Positions 1 to 30,958 of a stretch of 43,576 nucleotides of DNA are shown here, one piece after another. The stretch is from a virus: IMG/VR virus record IMGVR_UViG_3300036860_000844, positions 1 through 43,576 of that record; one strand, written 5' to 3'. A program made the translations under genes and the position numbers. The notes beneath the pieces are model-generated. The model did not search any database. It saw only the letters and a program-made list of their open reading frames with translations, and was not told where the DNA came from. Every line of letters begins with the position of its first letter. Position 1 is the first letter of the stretch.

Positions 1-930
1 TCACTTCGCCCAGATCCTGTCGCGGATCTTGCCGAGCGCCGCATCGCCCTTCACACCGTGGATGTACTTCTGTGCCGTCTGCAGCGAGCGGTGGTTCAGC
101 ATCTCGGCGATTTCGTAGACCGTGGCCCCGTCCTTCGCGGCCATCGAGGCGATCGTGTGGCGGATCATGTGGGCGCCGGCGCGGCCGAGACCGGCGCGGA
201 TCGTCCAGCGCGCGATCATGTTCGAGAACCCCTGGCGCGACCACTTCCGACCCTGACTGTTCAGGAGCAGCGGTTCCTCCGGCTTCGCCTCACGCTGACG
301 GAGGTAGGCGGTCAGCATCGTGGCGACGTCCTTGCCGAGCTTCTTCTTGCGGAGCCCACCGCCCTTCACGCGGACCTCGATGCAGACGTCCTCGTCGGAG
401 TCGAGCACGAGGCTCTTGACCTTTGCCTTGCACCACTCGCTCGCACGGAGCGGCTGATCGGCGACGAGGCAGCACGCGAGCTTCTCGCCCGGCGATGCGT
501 CCTCGATCGCGCGGAGGAGTTCGAGAAGCTGGTCCTCGGTCAGCCAGCGCTCGGGCGGCTCGACGTGCTTCGGGCGCTTGATGTGCTGGACCGGGTTCTT
601 CTCCACGAGGTGCTCAGAGCGCCGGCGGGGGTGGGGCTCGGTCATGGCCCAGGTCGCGAACGATGAGAGCGCGGACATCGCGCCCCGGATCGAGTTGTTC
701 CCGAGGCCCTGGTCGCGGAGGTAGGCGATGAACCCGCGGAGGTTATCCTCGGTGAACTCGGCGATGTCGTTCGGTCGGTTCTGGCTCCCGAGGTAGGCGA
801 CGAGCCGGTCGAAGTGCCGGAGGTAGGTGTCGGCCGTGTTCTCGGACTCCATCCCCTTCGTCCACTTCCGGGTCGCCTCTGAGAGCGTCATCGCGTCACC
901 CTCCCACTTCGGGATCTGAGTGCGCGCCAT
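1..930 (-). CDS. int: Tyrosine recombinase (phage integrase)
   Basis: A 309-residue site-specific recombinase that would integrate and excise the phage by cutting and rejoining attP and attB. Residues about 13-100 form the SAM-like core-binding domain and about 125-309 the catalytic domain. The full active-site set is visible: Arg162 (PLRASE), Lys in the basic beta-hairpin near 195-197, His254 and Arg257 (HMIRH), His280 (LNH) and the nucleophile Tyr289 (QKYIHG). The ATG at 930 follows an AAAGGGG ribosome site. It is the last gene of the leftward block but has its own upstream gap carrying a repressor operator (947-966), so it may be controlled separately from the replication genes. The stop codon is the first three bases of the window, so downstream sequence is not seen. 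The family call is secure; the attachment site is not identified. Confidence 0.96.
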   Translation of the reverse strand: MARTQIPKWEGDAMTLSEATRKWTKGMESENTADTYLRHFDRLVAYLGSQNRPNDIAEFTEDNLRGFIAYLRDQGLGNNSIRGAMSALSSFATWAMTEPHPRRRSEHLVEKNPVQHIKRPKHVEPPERWLTEDQLLELLRAIEDASPGEKLACCLVADQPLRASEWCKAKVKSLVLDSDEDVCIEVRVKGGGLRKKKLGKDVATMLTAYLRQREAKPEEPLLLNSQGRKWSRQGFSNMIARWTIRAGLGRAGAHMIRHTIASMAAKDGATVYEIAEMLNHRSLQTAQKYIHGVKGDAALGKIRDRIWAK

Positions 931-14691: not shown

Positions 14692-15083
14692 CACGCCACC
14701 TCCGTCGCGGTCAGCGATTGACGCGTGAACTTCGGCCGATTCGCGCGGTCGAACTCTTCACCGCCCACCTCGCCGATGCACTTGAAGACGTCCCATCGGC
14801 GGGCGTACTTTCGGTAGTCGTCCTTAAGAGCGGTCACCCACCGATGGAGGTACTTCTCGTGATCGACCGTCAGACCGATCTCGTGGTACGTGATCGAGAT
14901 CTCGACGCGATGCACGCGGTCGGGGTCGGCATCGAGCGCCTCGCGCTCGTGCTTCTCGGCCCAGGCCTCGCCTACCGGCTGATAGGCGTTCTCCAGCACC
15001 TCGTGGCAGGTCCGGCATCGGGCGCGGACCCGGTTGACCGGGCTGCAGATCGTGACGCCCTGAAGCTCCTCAGCAGCCTGCAT
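14691..15083 (-). CDS. Hypothetical protein, 130 residues
   Basis: Overlaps the sigma factor 3' end by 14 bases; its ATG is preceded by AAGGAGG. Near the start there is CRTCHEVLENAY, a CxxC that could be half a metal site, then a mixed alpha/beta domain (VHRVEISITYHEIGLTVDHEKYLHRWVTALKDDYRKYARRW). Immediately following the sigma factor, it is a candidate partner or anti-sigma factor by position only; no ZAS motif (HxxxCxxC) is seen. Confidence 0.68.
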   Translation of the reverse strand: MQAAEELQGVTICSPVNRVRARCRTCHEVLENAYQPVGEAWAEKHEREALDADPDRVHRVEISITYHEIGLTVDHEKYLHRWVTALKDDYRKYARRWDVFKCIGEVGGEEFDRANRPKFTRQSLTATEVA

Positions 15084-15615
15084 AGCCGGCCTCCTTGTCT
15101 TGTTGCACTCCCTGTGACACCGCCGAGGGGGTCTCGCGGGACATCAGTTCCTGCGTGAGCAGAGGCCACCACTTCCGCTGCACCTCCTTCTTGAGCGCCT
15201 CGAAGGGGCGACCTAGCTCCTCCCCGACCGCCTCCCAGGTCTCGCCCTCGACGTACACGGCCCAGATCGCACGCCGTGCGTGCTCGGGGAGCTTCGAGAG
15301 CGCACGCTCGACATCGACCTTGAGCACGAGATCCTCTTCGTTGATGACCCGCGGCGGATTCCGATCGAGGTACTCGGCCTCGTGATCGAGTGCGCGGGTA
15401 GAGGTACGGAGCGCGTTCTGTGCGGTGTTCTGCACGGCCGTCGTAAGCCATGCCTCGATGTCCTTGACGTCGCGCTTCCACTGGCCGCCCGCGAAGGCGT
15501 CCTCGATCGCCCGCTGCACGACATCCTCGGCGTCACGGCCGACGAGATTCGCTGCCACCTTCAGCAGGCGCGGGCGTTGCGCCTCGACCGCCTGCTCGAA
15601 CTGCGTCCTGTTCAT
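15070..15615 (-). CDS. ECF-like RNA polymerase sigma factor
   Basis: A 181-residue protein built like an ECF (group 4) sigma factor, carrying regions 2 and 4 only. Region 2 lies at about 8-72: RLLKVAANLVGRDAEDVVQRAIEDAF (region 2.1-2.2, which binds the polymerase beta' clamp), then WLTTAVQNTAQNALR (region 2.4, which reads the -10). Region 4 lies at about 100-150: ALSKLPEHARRAIWAVYVEGETWEAVGEELG and the recognition helix EALKKEVQRK. It would redirect host RNA polymerase to phage promoters. The ATG follows GAGGAG and a 110-base leader, so it may have its own control. Residues 159-170 (SRETPSAVSQGV) are encoded by DNA repeated at 19113. Sigma identity is probable; its target promoters are not known. 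Confidence 0.75.
   Translation of the reverse strand: MNRTQFEQAVEAQRPRLLKVAANLVGRDAEDVVQRAIEDAFAGGQWKRDVKDIEAWLTTAVQNTAQNALRTSTRALDHEAEYLDRNPPRVINEEDLVLKVDVERALSKLPEHARRAIWAVYVEGETWEAVGEELGRPFEALKKEVQRKWWPLLTQELMSRETPSAVSQGVQQDKEAGYAGC
15111..15144 (-). repeat. 34-bp dispersed repeat, sigma-gene copy
   Basis: Read on the minus strand, these 34 bases match 19113-19146 on the plus strand at 31 positions. Here they encode MSRETPSAVSQ near the sigma factor C-terminus. Confidence 0.8.
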
Positions 15616-25158: not shown

Positions 25159-26025
25159 TTGCCGGACGACCAGAACCAAGGCGGTCAGCAGAACGACCAG
25201 AACCAAGGCGGTCAGCAGCAACAGCAGCAGCCGGACGGATGGATCGCGACACTCCCCGAGGAGCTTCGCGCCGCACCGGCCGTGAAGAAGTTCAAGGGCA
25301 AGGACTGGAACGAGGTCGGCCCGCAGGTCCTGAAGTCCTACGTGAATCTGGAGAAGTGGCAGATCCCCGGCGAGAACGCGACGCCGGAAGAGCGCGCCGC
25401 GTACGCGCGCCGGCGCGGGGTCCCCGAGAAGATCGAGGACTTCAAGGTCGAGCCGAAGGTTCCGGCCGGCGTGCCGTGGTCCCCGGAAGCGCAGGCCGAC
25501 TTCGTGAAGTTCGCGCACGCGGAAGGTCTCACGCCTCGCGAGGCGAACGCGGTCCTGAACTACTACCTGGAGAACGCCGGTCGTGGCATGGATCTCCAGA
25601 CGACGCAGACCGCGAAGGCGATCGAAGAGACGCACGCGGGCCTGCAGAAGAAGTGGGGAGCCGACTACAAGCGGAACGTCGGTCTCGTCGCGCGAGGCAT
25701 CGAGGAGTACGGCAGCGCCTCGTTCAACGAGCTTCTCGATCACGTCGTGATCAAGGGCCCCGACGGGAAGGACGTGAAGCTCGGCAATCATCCCGTGATG
25801 CTGGAGTTCCTGAAGTTCCACGGCGAGCAGCGGCTCGAAGCCGGGATGATCGACGGCGGCACGCTCCTGACGACGCAGGCCGACGCCGCGAAGGAACTCG
25901 AAGCGTACAAGGACGAGATCCGCTCGAAGGGCAAGGAGCACCCGTACATGAAGGGTGACGCCGCTGCGAAGAAGAAGATGACCGAACTGATGCAGCGCGC
26001 GTACCCGGAGCAGAAGCGCGACTGA
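25159..26025 (+). CDS. Scaffolding protein
   Basis: A 288-residue protein that would guide capsid assembly and then leave the head, as T7 gp9 does. It starts at a TTG, preceded by GGAG. The Gln/Asn/Gly-rich start includes a doubled 24-bp unit (25168-25191 and 25195-25218). It is acidic and helical: PEELRAAPAVKKFKGKDWNEVGPQVLKSYVNLEKWQ, VPWSPEAQADFVKFAHAEGLTPREANAVLNYYLENAG, ending in a Lys/Arg-rich capsid-contact region (AAAKKKMTELMQRAYPEQKRD). The position directly before the capsid gene supports the call. Confidence 0.85.
   Translation: MPDDQNQGGQQNDQNQGGQQQQQQPDGWIATLPEELRAAPAVKKFKGKDWNEVGPQVLKSYVNLEKWQIPGENATPEERAAYARRRGVPEKIEDFKVEPKVPAGVPWSPEAQADFVKFAHAEGLTPREANAVLNYYLENAGRGMDLQTTQTAKAIEETHAGLQKKWGADYKRNVGLVARGIEEYGSASFNELLDHVVIKGPDGKDVKLGNHPVMLEFLKFHGEQRLEAGMIDGGTLLTTQADAAKELEAYKDEIRSKGKEHPYMKGDAAAKKKMTELMQRAYPEQKRD
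25168..25218 (+). repeat. 24-bp tandem repeat in the scaffold gene
   Basis: Two identical 24-bp units separated by three bases encode DQNQGGQQ twice. In frame, 27-bp period. Confidence 0.85.
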
Positions 26026-26040
26026 CAGCCAAGCCCCCGA

Positions 26041-26068
26041 GACGTGGCGGGGTATCCGCTTCCACGTC
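26041..26068 (+). other. Bulged hairpin after the scaffold gene
   Basis: Outer stem GACGTG/CACGTC and inner stem GCGG/CCGC with loop GGTAT and a TTC bulge on the 3' side. The architecture is like the one at 27300-27331 on the other side of the capsid gene. No U-run; more like an RNA-processing or pausing structure. Confidence 0.5.
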
Positions 26069-26078
26069 ACCACTTTCA

Positions 26079-26094
26079 GAGCGCCAAGGCGCTC
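26079..26094 (+). other. GAGCGC-CAAG-GCGCTC hairpin before the tRNA
   Basis: A perfect 6-bp stem with a four-base loop, seven bases upstream of the tRNA 5' end. It may insulate or mark processing of the tRNA from the late transcript. Confidence 0.5.
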
Positions 26095-26100
26095 AACGCT

Positions 26101-26175
26101 GTGACGCAAGGCTAGATGGCGAGCCGGTGGGTTGTGGACCCACGGAGCGCGGTTCAAGTCCGCGGCGTCACCCCA
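26101..26175 (+). tRNA. tRNA-His (anticodon GTG)
   Basis: A complete cloverleaf: acceptor GTGACGC pairs with GCGTCAC; D stem GGCT/AGCC with GG in the loop; anticodon stem GTGGG/CCCAC with loop TTGTGGA (anticodon GTG, histidine); 4-base variable loop; T stem CGCGG/CCGCG with loop TTCAAGT; discriminator C73 and encoded CCA. The base before position 1 is T, so the G-1 of most bacterial tRNA-His is not encoded, although C73, its usual partner, is present. It lies between scaffold and capsid genes and would be cut from the late message. Confidence 0.93.
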
Positions 26176-26209
26176 TCGCACGACAGACCCCGACACCCTC
26201 GCGAGAGGC

Positions 26210-26304
26210 CGGGTGCCACCAGGGAAGCTGGTCGGGAGAGCGCGCCGTCACCGCGCAGGACGAGCCGGCGTAGGCCGGGAACTCACCGCCTCACGTAGCA
26301 CCCG
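26210..26304 (+). ncRNA. Multi-hairpin RNA element upstream of the capsid gene
   Basis: The ends CGGGTGC (26210-26216) and GCACCCG (26298-26304) can pair, enclosing three hairpins in series: ACCAG-GGAAG-CTGGT (26218-26232), GCGCG-CCGTCAC-CGCGC (26240-26256) and GAG-CCGGC-GTAG-GCCGG-CTC (26262-26284). The overall size is tRNA-like (95 nt), but there is no TTC T-loop and no U33, so it is not a tRNA. It lies between the tRNA and the capsid ribosome site and may regulate capsid translation or be an independent small RNA. Chance pairing in GC-rich DNA remains possible. Confidence 0.4.
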
Positions 26305-26336
26305 CCTCAGCAGTCCTCCGCAAAAGGAACAGAACC

Positions 26337-27266
26337 ATGTCCGACCTCACCACATCGATGATTCGGCAGTACCACGCGAACATCGAACTCAAGCTGCAGC
26401 AGGAAGGCGCTGTGCTCGCGCAGTACGTTCGCAACGAGCCGCAGTCGAGCGAGAAGCAGTTCTACGAGCAGGCAGATGGCGTGAGTGCCGAGCCGGTGAC
26501 GACCCGGTTCGCCGAGTCGCCGCAGGCCAACACGCCGTTCGATCGGCGTATGGTCACGATCGCGCCGTACCACGTCGGTGACTTCATCGACACGTTCGAG
26601 CGCGTGCAGACCCTGGCCGATCCGAAGAGCATCATCGTCGACAACTTCGTGCGGGCGCTCGGCCGCGAGAAGGACCGCGTGATCTACGAGGCCCTCTTCG
26701 GCACCGCGTACTCCGGCAAGGAGGGCACGACCTCGGTCGCGTACTCCACGACGGCGAGCACGTCGGGCGGCCTCAACGTCGTGGCCGACTTCAAGACCGC
26801 GAACTCCGGCCTCCTCGTCGAGAAGCTGATCGAGGCCAAGCGCGTGCTGCTCTCGAAGTTCAACAAGGTCGGCGAAGAGCCGTGGGTCATCGTGATCAAC
26901 AGCGACGGCCTGAGCGACCTGCTCAACCTCACGCCGATCCAGTCGGCCGACTACAACTCGATCAAGGCGCTCGTGAAGGGTGAGGTCAACACCTTCATGG
27001 GCTTCGACTTCGTGGGCTGGGAAGGCTACGTCAAGAACGGCACGAACGTGCTGCAAGGCACGGGCGTGAACGCCGAGGTGGTGTACCGCTACCCCGCGTT
27101 CGTGAAGAGCGGCCTGCTCTGCGCGACGGGCATGGATGTCATGACCCGCATCGTGGAGCGCTTCGATCGCTCGTTCCACTGGTACGCCTACGCCCGCGCG
27201 ATGTTCGGCGCGGTGCGGATGCAGGAGAACAAGATCGTCTGCATCGAGCGCTGGATCAGCGGCTAG
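26337..27266 (+). CDS. Major capsid protein
   Basis: A 309-residue protein in the capsid position of the T7/BPP-1 order, directly after scaffold and tRNA. ATG preceded by AAAAGGA. The order of segments fits an HK97-type fold: an N-terminal arm (MIRQYHANIELKLQQEGAVLAQYV), E-loop-like region (RRMVTIAPYHVGDFIDTFERVQ), a long spine helix (NFVRALGREKDRVIYEALFG), and P- and A-domain strands (EPWVIVINSDGLSDLLNL, FMGFDFVGWEGYV). The C-terminus WYAYARAMFGAVRMQENKIVCIERW is typical. No obvious cleavage site. It is likely the most highly expressed gene; 70 bases of non-coding leader contain RNA structure. Confidence 0.9.
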   Translation: MSDLTTSMIRQYHANIELKLQQEGAVLAQYVRNEPQSSEKQFYEQADGVSAEPVTTRFAESPQANTPFDRRMVTIAPYHVGDFIDTFERVQTLADPKSIIVDNFVRALGREKDRVIYEALFGTAYSGKEGTTSVAYSTTASTSGGLNVVADFKTANSGLLVEKLIEAKRVLLSKFNKVGEEPWVIVINSDGLSDLLNLTPIQSADYNSIKALVKGEVNTFMGFDFVGWEGYVKNGTNVLQGTGVNAEVVYRYPAFVKSGLLCATGMDVMTRIVERFDRSFHWYAYARAMFGAVRMQENKIVCIERWISG

Positions 27267-28717: not shown

Positions 28718-30958
28718 GTGGCGCGCGTACATCCGATCTTCTCCAGCTTCACCGCCGGAGAACTGAGCCCGCTTCTCTACGGCCGCGTCGACTTCGACAA
28801 GTACACGACGGGAGCGCGCCGTATCGAGAACCTGATCGTCAACCCGCACGGTCCGGTCTCGCGTCGGCCCGGCACTCGGTTCGTTGCCGAGGTCAAGGAC
28901 TCGACGAAGAACACGTACGTCATCCCGTTCGAGTTCTCGACGCAGCAGGCGTACATCATCGAGTTCGGCGATCAGTACATGAGGTTCTATAAGGACGGCG
29001 GCCGTATCGAGTCGCCGCCCGGCTCGCCGGTCGAAGCGAATCCCGCGCCGCCGTACGCCGCGGCGCAGATCCCGTACGTGAAGTTCATCCAGTCCGCGGA
29101 CACGGTCTACTTCTTCCACTCCGACGTCGCGCCGCAGAAGCTCATTCGGTTCTCACACACGTCGTGGTCGGTGAAGCCGGTTCGCTTCATGCCGCCGGCG
29201 ACGTACGAGGCCGGGCTCCAGCCCGCGACGACTCTGACGCTCGGCGCGGTGACAGGCCTCGGTGTGACGTTCACCGCCGGGTCGAGCGTGTTCATCGCGG
29301 GCGATGTCGGCCGGATGATCACGAGCGGCGACGGCCGCGCGATCATCACGGCGCAGGGCGGGACCACGGCGACCGTCGACATTGTCGATGACTTCGCGTC
29401 GGTCGGTCCGATCGCGAGCGGAAGCTGGACGATCGAGGGGTCTCCGAACGTCGAGATCACTCCGAGCGTCGATAAGCCGAAGCACGCCCGTACGACGCTC
29501 ACCGTGACCGGCGTCGTCGCCGCGTTCCGCTCCTCTGATGTCGGCCGGTACGTTCGTGTGAACAAGGGCGTCGTGAAGATCATCCGGTTCACGAGCGCGT
29601 CCTCGGTCGATGCCGAGGTCCTCGCCCCGCTCAAGGACAAGACCGCATCCCCGAGTGGTGCGTGGTCGCTCGAAGACTCGGCCTGGAGCGCCTCCCGCGG
29701 CTACCCGCGTGCGGGCTCCTTCCACGAGCAGCGGATGGTGGTGGCCGGCTCGAACTTTCAGCCGCAGTCGTTCTGGGCCTCGGCCTCCGCGGATCTGGAG
29801 AACTTCGGGCTCGGCCCCGACGACGACGACGCGTACGAGTTCAAGATCGCTGCGAACGACGTGAACACGATCCTCTGGATCGTCCCGACGCGCGTGCTCC
29901 TGATGGGTACCGCATCGAGCGAGTTCAAGGCCGTCGGCAGCAACGACAGCGCGATCACGCCGACGAACGTCAACGTCAACACTGAGACCGCCTGGGGCTC
30001 GTCGGATCGAGTACGCCCGGTCCGCATCGCGCACACCGGCATCTTCGTCTCGCGCTCGCGTCGCGAGGTCCGCGAGATCCTGTTCTCGGTCGACCGCGAC
30101 AGCTACGTCTCGAACAATCTCCTGCTGCTCGCCGAGCACCTCACGCGCACGTACGGCGTGACGGACCTCGCGTTCCAGCGGAACCCGGCCCCGACGGTCT
30201 GGGCGATCCGAGAGGACGGCGTCCTGCTCTCGTGCGCATATCAGCGCGAGCACAACATCGTCGCCTGGGCGCGGCACTTCACGGGCTCCGATCAGCCGCA
30301 GGACGGAAGCTCGCCGGTGAAGGGCAAGTTCGAGTCGGTCGCGGTGATCCCGCACTGGAGCGCGAACCGCGACGTCCCGTTCTTCGTCGTGAGGCGCGTG
30401 CTCGCCGGCGGCACGAAGCGCTACATCGAGCACTTCGACGAAGCGAACGGCTATTACGGGAAGCTCTACGTCGACTGCGGCCTGAGCGCGGTCTTCGGTA
30501 GCCCGGTCAGTGGCGTGAGCGGCCTGGGCCATCTCGAAGGCGAGACGGTGCAGATCGTCGGCGACGGCGCGGTCTACCCGCCGAAGGTTGTGACCGGCGG
30601 CGCGGTCGCGCTCGACGGCAATACCGCGCTGGCCGTCGAGGTAGGCCTGCCGTACTACTCGACGCTGGAGACGATGAACCCCGAGGTCCCGCTGCAGGGT
30701 ACCTCGCAGGGCCGGCAGAAGCACTGGTCCGAGATCTTCGTGCGGCTCGACTCCTCGCTCGGTTGCTTCGTGAACGACGAGGAGCTTCCGTTCCGCGCAT
30801 CGGGCGATGACATGGACGCGCCGCCCCCGATCTTCACCGGCGATCACAAGATCTCGAACCTTGGTCGCGAGGGCATGGCCTCGATCAAGGTGCAGCAGCT
30901 ACAGCCGCTCCCGCTGACCGTGATCGCGGTGTTCGGCACGATCGGCATCGGCGACTGA
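28718..30958 (+). CDS. Tail tubular protein B, T7 gp12-like nozzle
   Basis: A 746-residue tail-nozzle protein, starting at GTG two bases after the previous stop. The N-terminus, IFSSFTAGELSPLLYGRVDFDKYTTGARRIENLIVNPHGPVSRRPGTRFVAE, is a strong family signature, followed by FEFSTQQAYIIEFGDQYMRFYKDGG. The rest is beta-rich, fitting the propeller and nozzle of gp12, with SPVKGKFESVAVIP and late conserved segments. It would form a hexameric tube with the gp11-like protein. Confidence 0.92.
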   Translation: MARVHPIFSSFTAGELSPLLYGRVDFDKYTTGARRIENLIVNPHGPVSRRPGTRFVAEVKDSTKNTYVIPFEFSTQQAYIIEFGDQYMRFYKDGGRIESPPGSPVEANPAPPYAAAQIPYVKFIQSADTVYFFHSDVAPQKLIRFSHTSWSVKPVRFMPPATYEAGLQPATTLTLGAVTGLGVTFTAGSSVFIAGDVGRMITSGDGRAIITAQGGTTATVDIVDDFASVGPIASGSWTIEGSPNVEITPSVDKPKHARTTLTVTGVVAAFRSSDVGRYVRVNKGVVKIIRFTSASSVDAEVLAPLKDKTASPSGAWSLEDSAWSASRGYPRAGSFHEQRMVVAGSNFQPQSFWASASADLENFGLGPDDDDAYEFKIAANDVNTILWIVPTRVLLMGTASSEFKAVGSNDSAITPTNVNVNTETAWGSSDRVRPVRIAHTGIFVSRSRREVREILFSVDRDSYVSNNLLLLAEHLTRTYGVTDLAFQRNPAPTVWAIREDGVLLSCAYQREHNIVAWARHFTGSDQPQDGSSPVKGKFESVAVIPHWSANRDVPFFVVRRVLAGGTKRYIEHFDEANGYYGKLYVDCGLSAVFGSPVSGVSGLGHLEGETVQIVGDGAVYPPKVVTGGAVALDGNTALAVEVGLPYYSTLETMNPEVPLQGTSQGRQKHWSEIFVRLDSSLGCFVNDEELPFRASGDDMDAPPPIFTGDHKISNLGREGMASIKVQQLQPLPLTVIAVFGTIGIGD

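Follow-up and report, generated by a model that had tools for sequence, protein, structure and literature searches.

A phage tRNA-His gene with C73 and without an encoded G-1, and its counterparts in phage T5 and mobile tRNA arrays

The base G-1 is a textbook identity element of tRNA-His, and the question raised by the locus described here is how a phage tRNA-His gene that does not encode this base could be matured, charged and used. The window, that is the whole stretch of 43,576 bases that was analysed, comprises an entire IMG/VR virus record, a podovirus with 66% G+C.

The tRNA-His gene and its place in the virus record

The tRNA-His gene lies between two open reading frames in a segment with the following features:

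25159 to 26025, + strand: open reading frame upstream of the tRNA, with coding-like composition, occupying the position that the 'putative protease' gene has in the relative MW202510.1 (identity by gene order only)
26079 to 26094, + strand: short G+C-rich hairpin (GAGCGCCAAGGCGCTC) directly before the tRNA leader, read in the sequence and forming in computed folds
26100, + strand: base -1, read directly as T (G in bacterial tRNA-His)
26101 to 26175, + strand: tRNA-His(GUG) gene with C73 and encoded CCA, without G-1 (ARAGORN, RF00005 and stems read base by base)
26176 to 26336, + strand: non-coding stretch from the tRNA to the capsid gene, which would be the capsid mRNA leader if co-transcribed
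26337 to 27266, + strand: major capsid protein gene (tblastn matches to capsid proteins annotated in HTVC010P-like phages and in Vibrio phages)

ARAGORN returned a single tRNA for the 43,576 bases, tRNA-His(gtg) at 26101-26175 (+), which is thus not a unit of a tRNA array, while the match to Rfam RF00005 at 26101-26172 scored 43.4 bits, above the gathering score of 29, and places the gene in this family. A fast-filter Rfam scan of the whole window missed it. The acceptor stem GTGACGC/GCGTCAC is paired at 7/7 positions, the four stems together at 21/21, and the anticodon loop TTGTGGA, C73 and CCA are all present on direct reading. The tRNA-His pattern occurs at one place in the window and in none of 100 shuffles. 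The full cloverleaf with CCA, GTG anticodon, C73 and T-1 described in the earlier note is therefore borne out by ARAGORN, RF00005 and base-by-base reading, although that note is silent on two further features, namely position 8, which is A rather than T, and a variable loop of 4 nt with G as its last base (G48). A8 is found in 44/732 distinct viral tRNAs, as against T8 in 648/732. The usual tRNA tertiary contacts include 8-14 and 15-48, and neither contact is standard in the window tRNA-His given A8 and a 4-nt variable loop ending in G. The cloverleaf is furthermore not the minimum-energy fold predicted by ViennaRNA (-32.5 versus -37.4 kcal/mol for the gene), and with the leader included the enforced cloverleaf lies 2.4 kcal/mol above the minimum. 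Folding of the 312 bases around the gene is no better than that of shuffles (z 0.66), and no promoter-like or terminator-like site was found at 25700-26400.

Relatives of the capsid protein occur in Pelagibacter phages (e.g. HTVC010P) and Vibrio phages (77 records, all below 60% identity), with the closest virus contigs being 58 and 55% identical in this protein. No tRNA was found in the 90 stretches fetched from relatives, in which at least two contigs are present twice, and no capsid-protein relative was found among species genomes with the six peptide patterns used. A 16-base anticodon-arm pattern was discarded as a clue to the host, its matches falling on four contigs with no tRNA-His there. 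An integrase-family protein gene at 1-930 (-) and a sigma-factor-like protein gene at 15070-15615 (-) suggest that the phage may be temperate. The tRNA as phage integration site was rejected, as 25 kb of the linear record separate it from the integrase-like gene; outside the tRNA gene the window has no 17-base match to the tRNAs of the sampled bacterial loci. Histidine codons make up 164/8160 codons in 14 reading frames of the window, so that codon demand by itself does not account for a tRNA-His gene and was rejected as its sole explanation.

Viral tRNA-His genes and phage T5

Virus contigs were scanned with a tRNA-His pattern in which positions -1 and 73 were free and an encoded CCA was required, giving at least 120 stretches, in which ARAGORN identified 92 tRNA-His genes with enough flank, near-duplicates included. 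Filtering for CCA in register reduced these to 84, and the no-G-1/C73 genes from 18/92 in the first count to 13. Among the matches listed, the 84 genes comprise 50 with G-1/C73, 13 without G-1 and with C73, 14 without G-1 and with A73, four with G-1/A73 and three others, G-1 thus being missing from 13/63 viral C73/CCA genes listed (near-duplicates included). The -1 base of the 13 genes listed is T in 11 and A in two, and since T also stands ahead of 471/657 non-His viral tRNAs, where it is the commonest base, the missing G has been replaced by the base usual there. The acceptor stem starts with GTG in 13/13 no-G-1/C73, 34/49 G-1/C73 and 0/14 no-G-1/A73 viral genes listed. From their sequences, the 13 genes look like ordinary bacterial tRNA-His genes from which G-1 alone has been removed. 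They have more tRNA neighbours than the 50 G-1/C73 genes (Mann-Whitney p = 0.016, near-duplicates included), a trend to which the lone tRNA-His of the window is an exception.

Like canonical bacterial tRNA-His (G-1:C73), the window gene has C73, the GUG anticodon and the GTG/CAC acceptor end, but with T at 26100 it lacks the encoded G-1. Alphaproteobacterial tRNA-His also lacks an encoded G-1, but there with A73, in contrast to C73 in the window gene. The earlier note had invoked this type for comparison; it proves to be a separate kind, as none of the 14 viral no-G-1/A73 genes listed has the GTG acceptor start. The same note's statement that bacteria nearly always encode G-1 agrees with the scan of 369 genomes of one class, in which the no-G-1/C73 form was found only in the seed genome. 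Its view that C73 without G-1 is unusual thus holds for cells (1/369 genomes, one class) but not for phages (13/63 viral C73/CCA genes listed, with T5 as a named example).

Escherichia phage T5 (AY543070.1, complement 30206-30283) has a tRNA-His with T-1 and C73. A note in its GenBank entry describes the tRNA-His with a changed anticodon as an effective amber suppressor, suggesting that E. coli can use a tRNA-His without an encoded G-1 in translation, the inserted amino acid being unspecified in the note. The changed anticodon is printed in the entry as CAU, which is taken to be a slip for CUA. The T5 tRNAs were reportedly identified by charging in older papers. Two T5 tRNA-His species are given in a review table (PMC4810235, available text). 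Relatives of the T5 gene are present in 503 phage records, as against none in E. coli genomes at E 0.001. T-1/C73 is read in seven of ten named phages (T5, KNP2, SPLA5a, AAS21, EcSzw_1, 26175IV and phagemcphageface), the six besides T5 being enterobacterial phages, and G-1 in the other three (XacN1 and phiEa104 with G-1/C73, pEa_SNUABM_50 with G-1/A73); similarity to the T5 gene decided the choice of eight of the ten, so that 7/10 is not a rate. T5 tRNA-His and its relatives share with the window gene T-1, C73, the GTG acceptor start, the GUG anticodon and the encoded CCA, all in a phage genome, and the window gene is filed, by these sequence features, as a further member of this T5-like kind. 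The two differ in that the T5 gene is one of 21 ARAGORN tRNA genes in the stretch read, whereas the window has one, and in their tRNA bodies, blastn of the window gene giving no match in phages or plasmids.

Two less likely readings of the window gene are considered here. In the first, the gene is decaying, or was recently acquired, and is turning into a pseudogene, in keeping with the fetched relatives without a tRNA, with A8 and G48, and with the nearest tRNA-His among those compared, which is 80% identical and has G-1. This is improbable, as 21/21 stem pairs and the CCA are intact and the T-1/C73 form is kept in the relatives of T5, so that the loss of G-1 alone is no sign of decay. The second, to which a slightly greater but still low probability is given, is a role other than that of amino acid donor: the tRNA would either be a processing site at which the 5' end of the capsid mRNA is released, or act as a decoy that draws off an enzyme cutting tRNAs. 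The tRNA stands alone between two late genes, immediately ahead of the capsid leader, and its core is weakened and its G-1 lost, all of which would suit such a role. C73, however, would be free to drift in a non-donor, but is kept with the anticodon, the GTG acceptor start and the CCA in the window and in the 13 viral genes; this conservation of C73, anticodon and acceptor end favours charging with histidine over a decoy. No tRNA is seen at the site upstream of the capsid gene in the relatives, which argues that the operon has no need of one.

Cellular genomes, plasmid arrays and Thg1

One genome each for 84,980 species was scanned for the C73/no-G-1 tRNA-His pattern, giving at least 116 loci, and at least 100 cellular genes pass as no-G-1/C73 in register, with T (91), C (5) or A (4) at -1 among the matches listed. 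These occur in dense tRNA clusters, 82/100 of the genes listed having at least three other tRNAs within 1.5 kb. The taxa among the loci listed include Lachnospiraceae, Rhizobacter, Piscinibacter, Streptomyces, Acidithiobacillus and Planctomycetaceae. Twenty-two of the genomes were taken further (isolates first, some metagenome assemblies and three archaea). An additional G-1/C73 copy is present in 16 of the 19 bacterial genomes among them, and has fewer tRNA neighbours than the no-G-1 copy of the same genome (16 pairs, Wilcoxon p = 0.0014). The seed genome of the class scan mentioned above is G031 (Granulosicoccaceae), the figure of 369 denoting genomes scanned rather than genomes with a pattern-readable tRNA-His, and the no-G-1/C73 form appears, from these sequences, to be rare in cells. 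Shared protein neighbours of the bacterial no-G-1 genes were rejected as a lead, as the largest clusters look, by eye, like translated tRNA genes.

Of nine plasmid stretches read, eight contain tRNAs and seven a tRNA-His. The latter lacks G-1 in Mycobacterium intracellulare, Mycolicibacterium and Pseudarthrobacter and has G-1 in Methylibium, two Variovorax and Polaromonas, indicating that mobile arrays are mixed. Plasmid and chromosomal arrays resemble the window in containing a mobile tRNA-His that partly lacks G-1 (3/7 plasmid stretches), but they contain many tRNAs, in contrast to the single tRNA of the window. An HNH endonuclease gene is annotated in or next to each of six plasmid tRNA arrays (L462-L465, L467, L468). 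The tRNA-His genes of Burkholderiales arrays (L217, L232, L241, L264, L272, L293 and similar) have a 5' flank, gcgcttgggt, complementary to the 3' flank ccccaagcgc after C73, so that the acceptor stem could extend beyond the U-1/C73 mismatch.

Post-transcriptional addition of the missing base, raised in the earlier note, would require that, once RNase P has cut, the host or another mobile element supplies a Thg1-like enzyme to place G-1 opposite C73. In vitro, addition of G opposite C73 is within the reach of Thg1-like proteins, according to the available text of PMC6471195. In G461, G463 and G466 one contig contains both a Thg1 gene and a no-G-1 tRNA-His, with 9 to 15 kb between them, and among 48 genomes of one family both no-G-1/C73 genomes have Thg1, which is present in 4/48 overall. 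The Thg1 family (PF04446) has, however, no match in the window, so that a tRNA-His paired with a Thg1-family gene of the same genome is not seen here. No match was found either in the 16 bacterial genomes holding both G-1 and no-G-1 forms, while G040 and G042 have Thg1 and encode G-1. A pattern that is not exhaustive revealed a tRNA-His in three of 26 virus contigs that have a Thg1 relative, two being G-1/C73 and one T-1/T73; addition of G-1 by a Thg1 of the phage itself was rejected, with no PF04446 match in the window and no T-1/C73 tRNA-His seen in these 26 contigs. A search of 12 of the 13 other no-G-1/C73 virus records (all but L183) with PF04446 gave a single sub-threshold fragment, and the family matched in 3/22 genomes of a first no-G-1 batch (G031 plus two archaeal genomes), in 6/20 further ones (8/23 when G031 and G072 are recounted) and in 4/369 genomes of the class of G031. 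Thg1 is thus mostly absent, but lies near a no-G-1 tRNA-His in three assemblies, which suggests that it may serve some elements but not most. For the window gene, addition by such an enzyme is very improbable, and post-transcriptional addition in general has little support; the question of recognition posed alongside it stands, and T5 makes it testable.

The Thg1 contig of G463 (C94, L427) has the look of a large phage, with Thg1-like, RNA ligase, adenylosuccinate synthetase and LAGLIDADG genes, so that the Thg1-like gene and a T-1/C73 tRNA-His occur together on a phage-like contig, and a virus contig nearly as long encodes a Thg1-like protein 92% identical to that of G463. On the G461 contig (C79, L426), an RlaP-family RNA repair gene, an AAA gene and a WYL gene are found nearby, while the G466 contig (C5, L428) contains both a Thg1-like gene and a no-G-1/C73 tRNA-His. 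The related genomes G031 (L354) and G072 (L416) both contain a T-1/C73 tRNA-His in a Pro-Arg-His-Leu tRNA cluster as well as a Thg1-like gene, a pairing which hints that a bacterial Thg1-like protein may add G-1 in the cell.

Maturation, charging and role of the tRNA, and an RNA motif in capsid leaders

The best explanation, to which an even chance is given, is that the gene produces a functional supplementary tRNA-His despite the loss of its encoded G-1, for which we infer transcription, a 5' end at +1, weak G-1-free charging with histidine by the host HisRS and a benefit to the phage. The tRNA would probably be transcribed with the late (capsid) genes and cleaved by the host RNase P at the ordinary +1, after U-1, so that the mature tRNA would begin at G1 of the 7-pair acceptor stem. 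The host HisRS, relying on C73 and the GUG anticodon, would then charge it with histidine at lower efficiency, and the phage would draw on its own tRNA-His once the host tRNA pool is depleted or cleaved. The intact 21/21 stem pairs, C73, anticodon and CCA favour a working tRNA. Bacterial HisRS reads G-1, C73 and the anticodon, with a strong dependence on G-1 in the available text of PMC9976931, and this dependence would count against the explanation. A8 and G48, predicted to weaken the tRNA core, likewise speak against it together with the non-minimum cloverleaf, as do the lack of a tRNA in the 90 relative stretches and of a promoter-like site at 25700-26400.

RNase P may alternatively leave U-1 in place, so that the extra 5' nucleotide and phosphate read by HisRS are kept and only the base is changed (U-1 opposite C73). 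The 78-base T5 annotation, one 5' base longer than the ARAGORN gene, takes in U-1, and according to the available text of PMC9976931 in E. coli the 5' phosphate is positioned by G-1, while A. pernix HisRS accepts A-1 and C-1. The annotation may, however, reflect convention rather than RNA ends, U is the usual base just before viral tRNAs, where cleavage after U is the rule, and U-1 does not pair with C73. Retention of U-1 is consequently judged unlikely, at around one chance in a handful.

As regards a benefit from the working supplementary tRNA-His, the available texts of PMC11555353, PMC12409363 and PMC10264068 describe phage tRNAs, other than tRNA-His, that rescue phages from tRNA-cutting defences; tRNA-His is listed among the probable cleavage products of the PARIS nuclease AriB (PMC12409363), and tRNA arrays have likewise been suggested to counter such defences (PMC12803027). 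By analogy, the window tRNA-His may have an anti-defence role. More broadly, it is tentatively proposed, at well below even likelihood, that phage and mobile-array tRNA-His make up a recurrent class no longer bound by the near-universal G-1 rule, keeping C73 and the anticodon and being charged by ordinary bacterial HisRS without G-1, perhaps thereby evading nucleases, or factors of the host, to which the host tRNA-His is subject. The T5 tRNA-His gene itself is already known as a public record. In the available texts of PMC9976931 and PMC6471195, a missing G-1 is named for mitochondria and for certain alphaproteobacteria and eukaryotes, and an archaeon is said to follow another rule at -1, while phages are not named; no remark on phage or mobile tRNA-His without G-1 was found in the portions of the literature searched, most subscription journals lying outside its scope. 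The recurrence of such genes in phages and mobile elements, next to a host copy with G-1, asks how far HisRS manages without G-1 in the cell and whether identity elements shift once a virus makes use of a tRNA. With T5 in E. coli K-12 there is a laboratory phage in which the charging of a no-G-1 tRNA-His becomes directly testable.

A separate observation concerns the stretch ahead of the capsid gene in relatives of this phage. Many HTVC010P-like capsid leaders (L016-L082, 190 bases before the capsid gene) contain a repeated GGG-UAG-C / G-UCC bulged hairpin, once per orientation, and the two hairpins flank a likely H-type pseudoknot with varying complementary stems. The window leader (26176-26336) is without the form of the motif found in the relatives, and Rfam at gathering gave no match in the loci of 13 relatives at the fast setting, which had also missed the window tRNA. 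Two copies of the motif occur in 46/80 capsid leaders (79 relatives and the window), and the pseudoknot score of 20 non-redundant leaders is 15.75, versus 12.08 (sd 0.99) over 20 shuffle rounds. The motif is possibly an undescribed cis-acting RNA.
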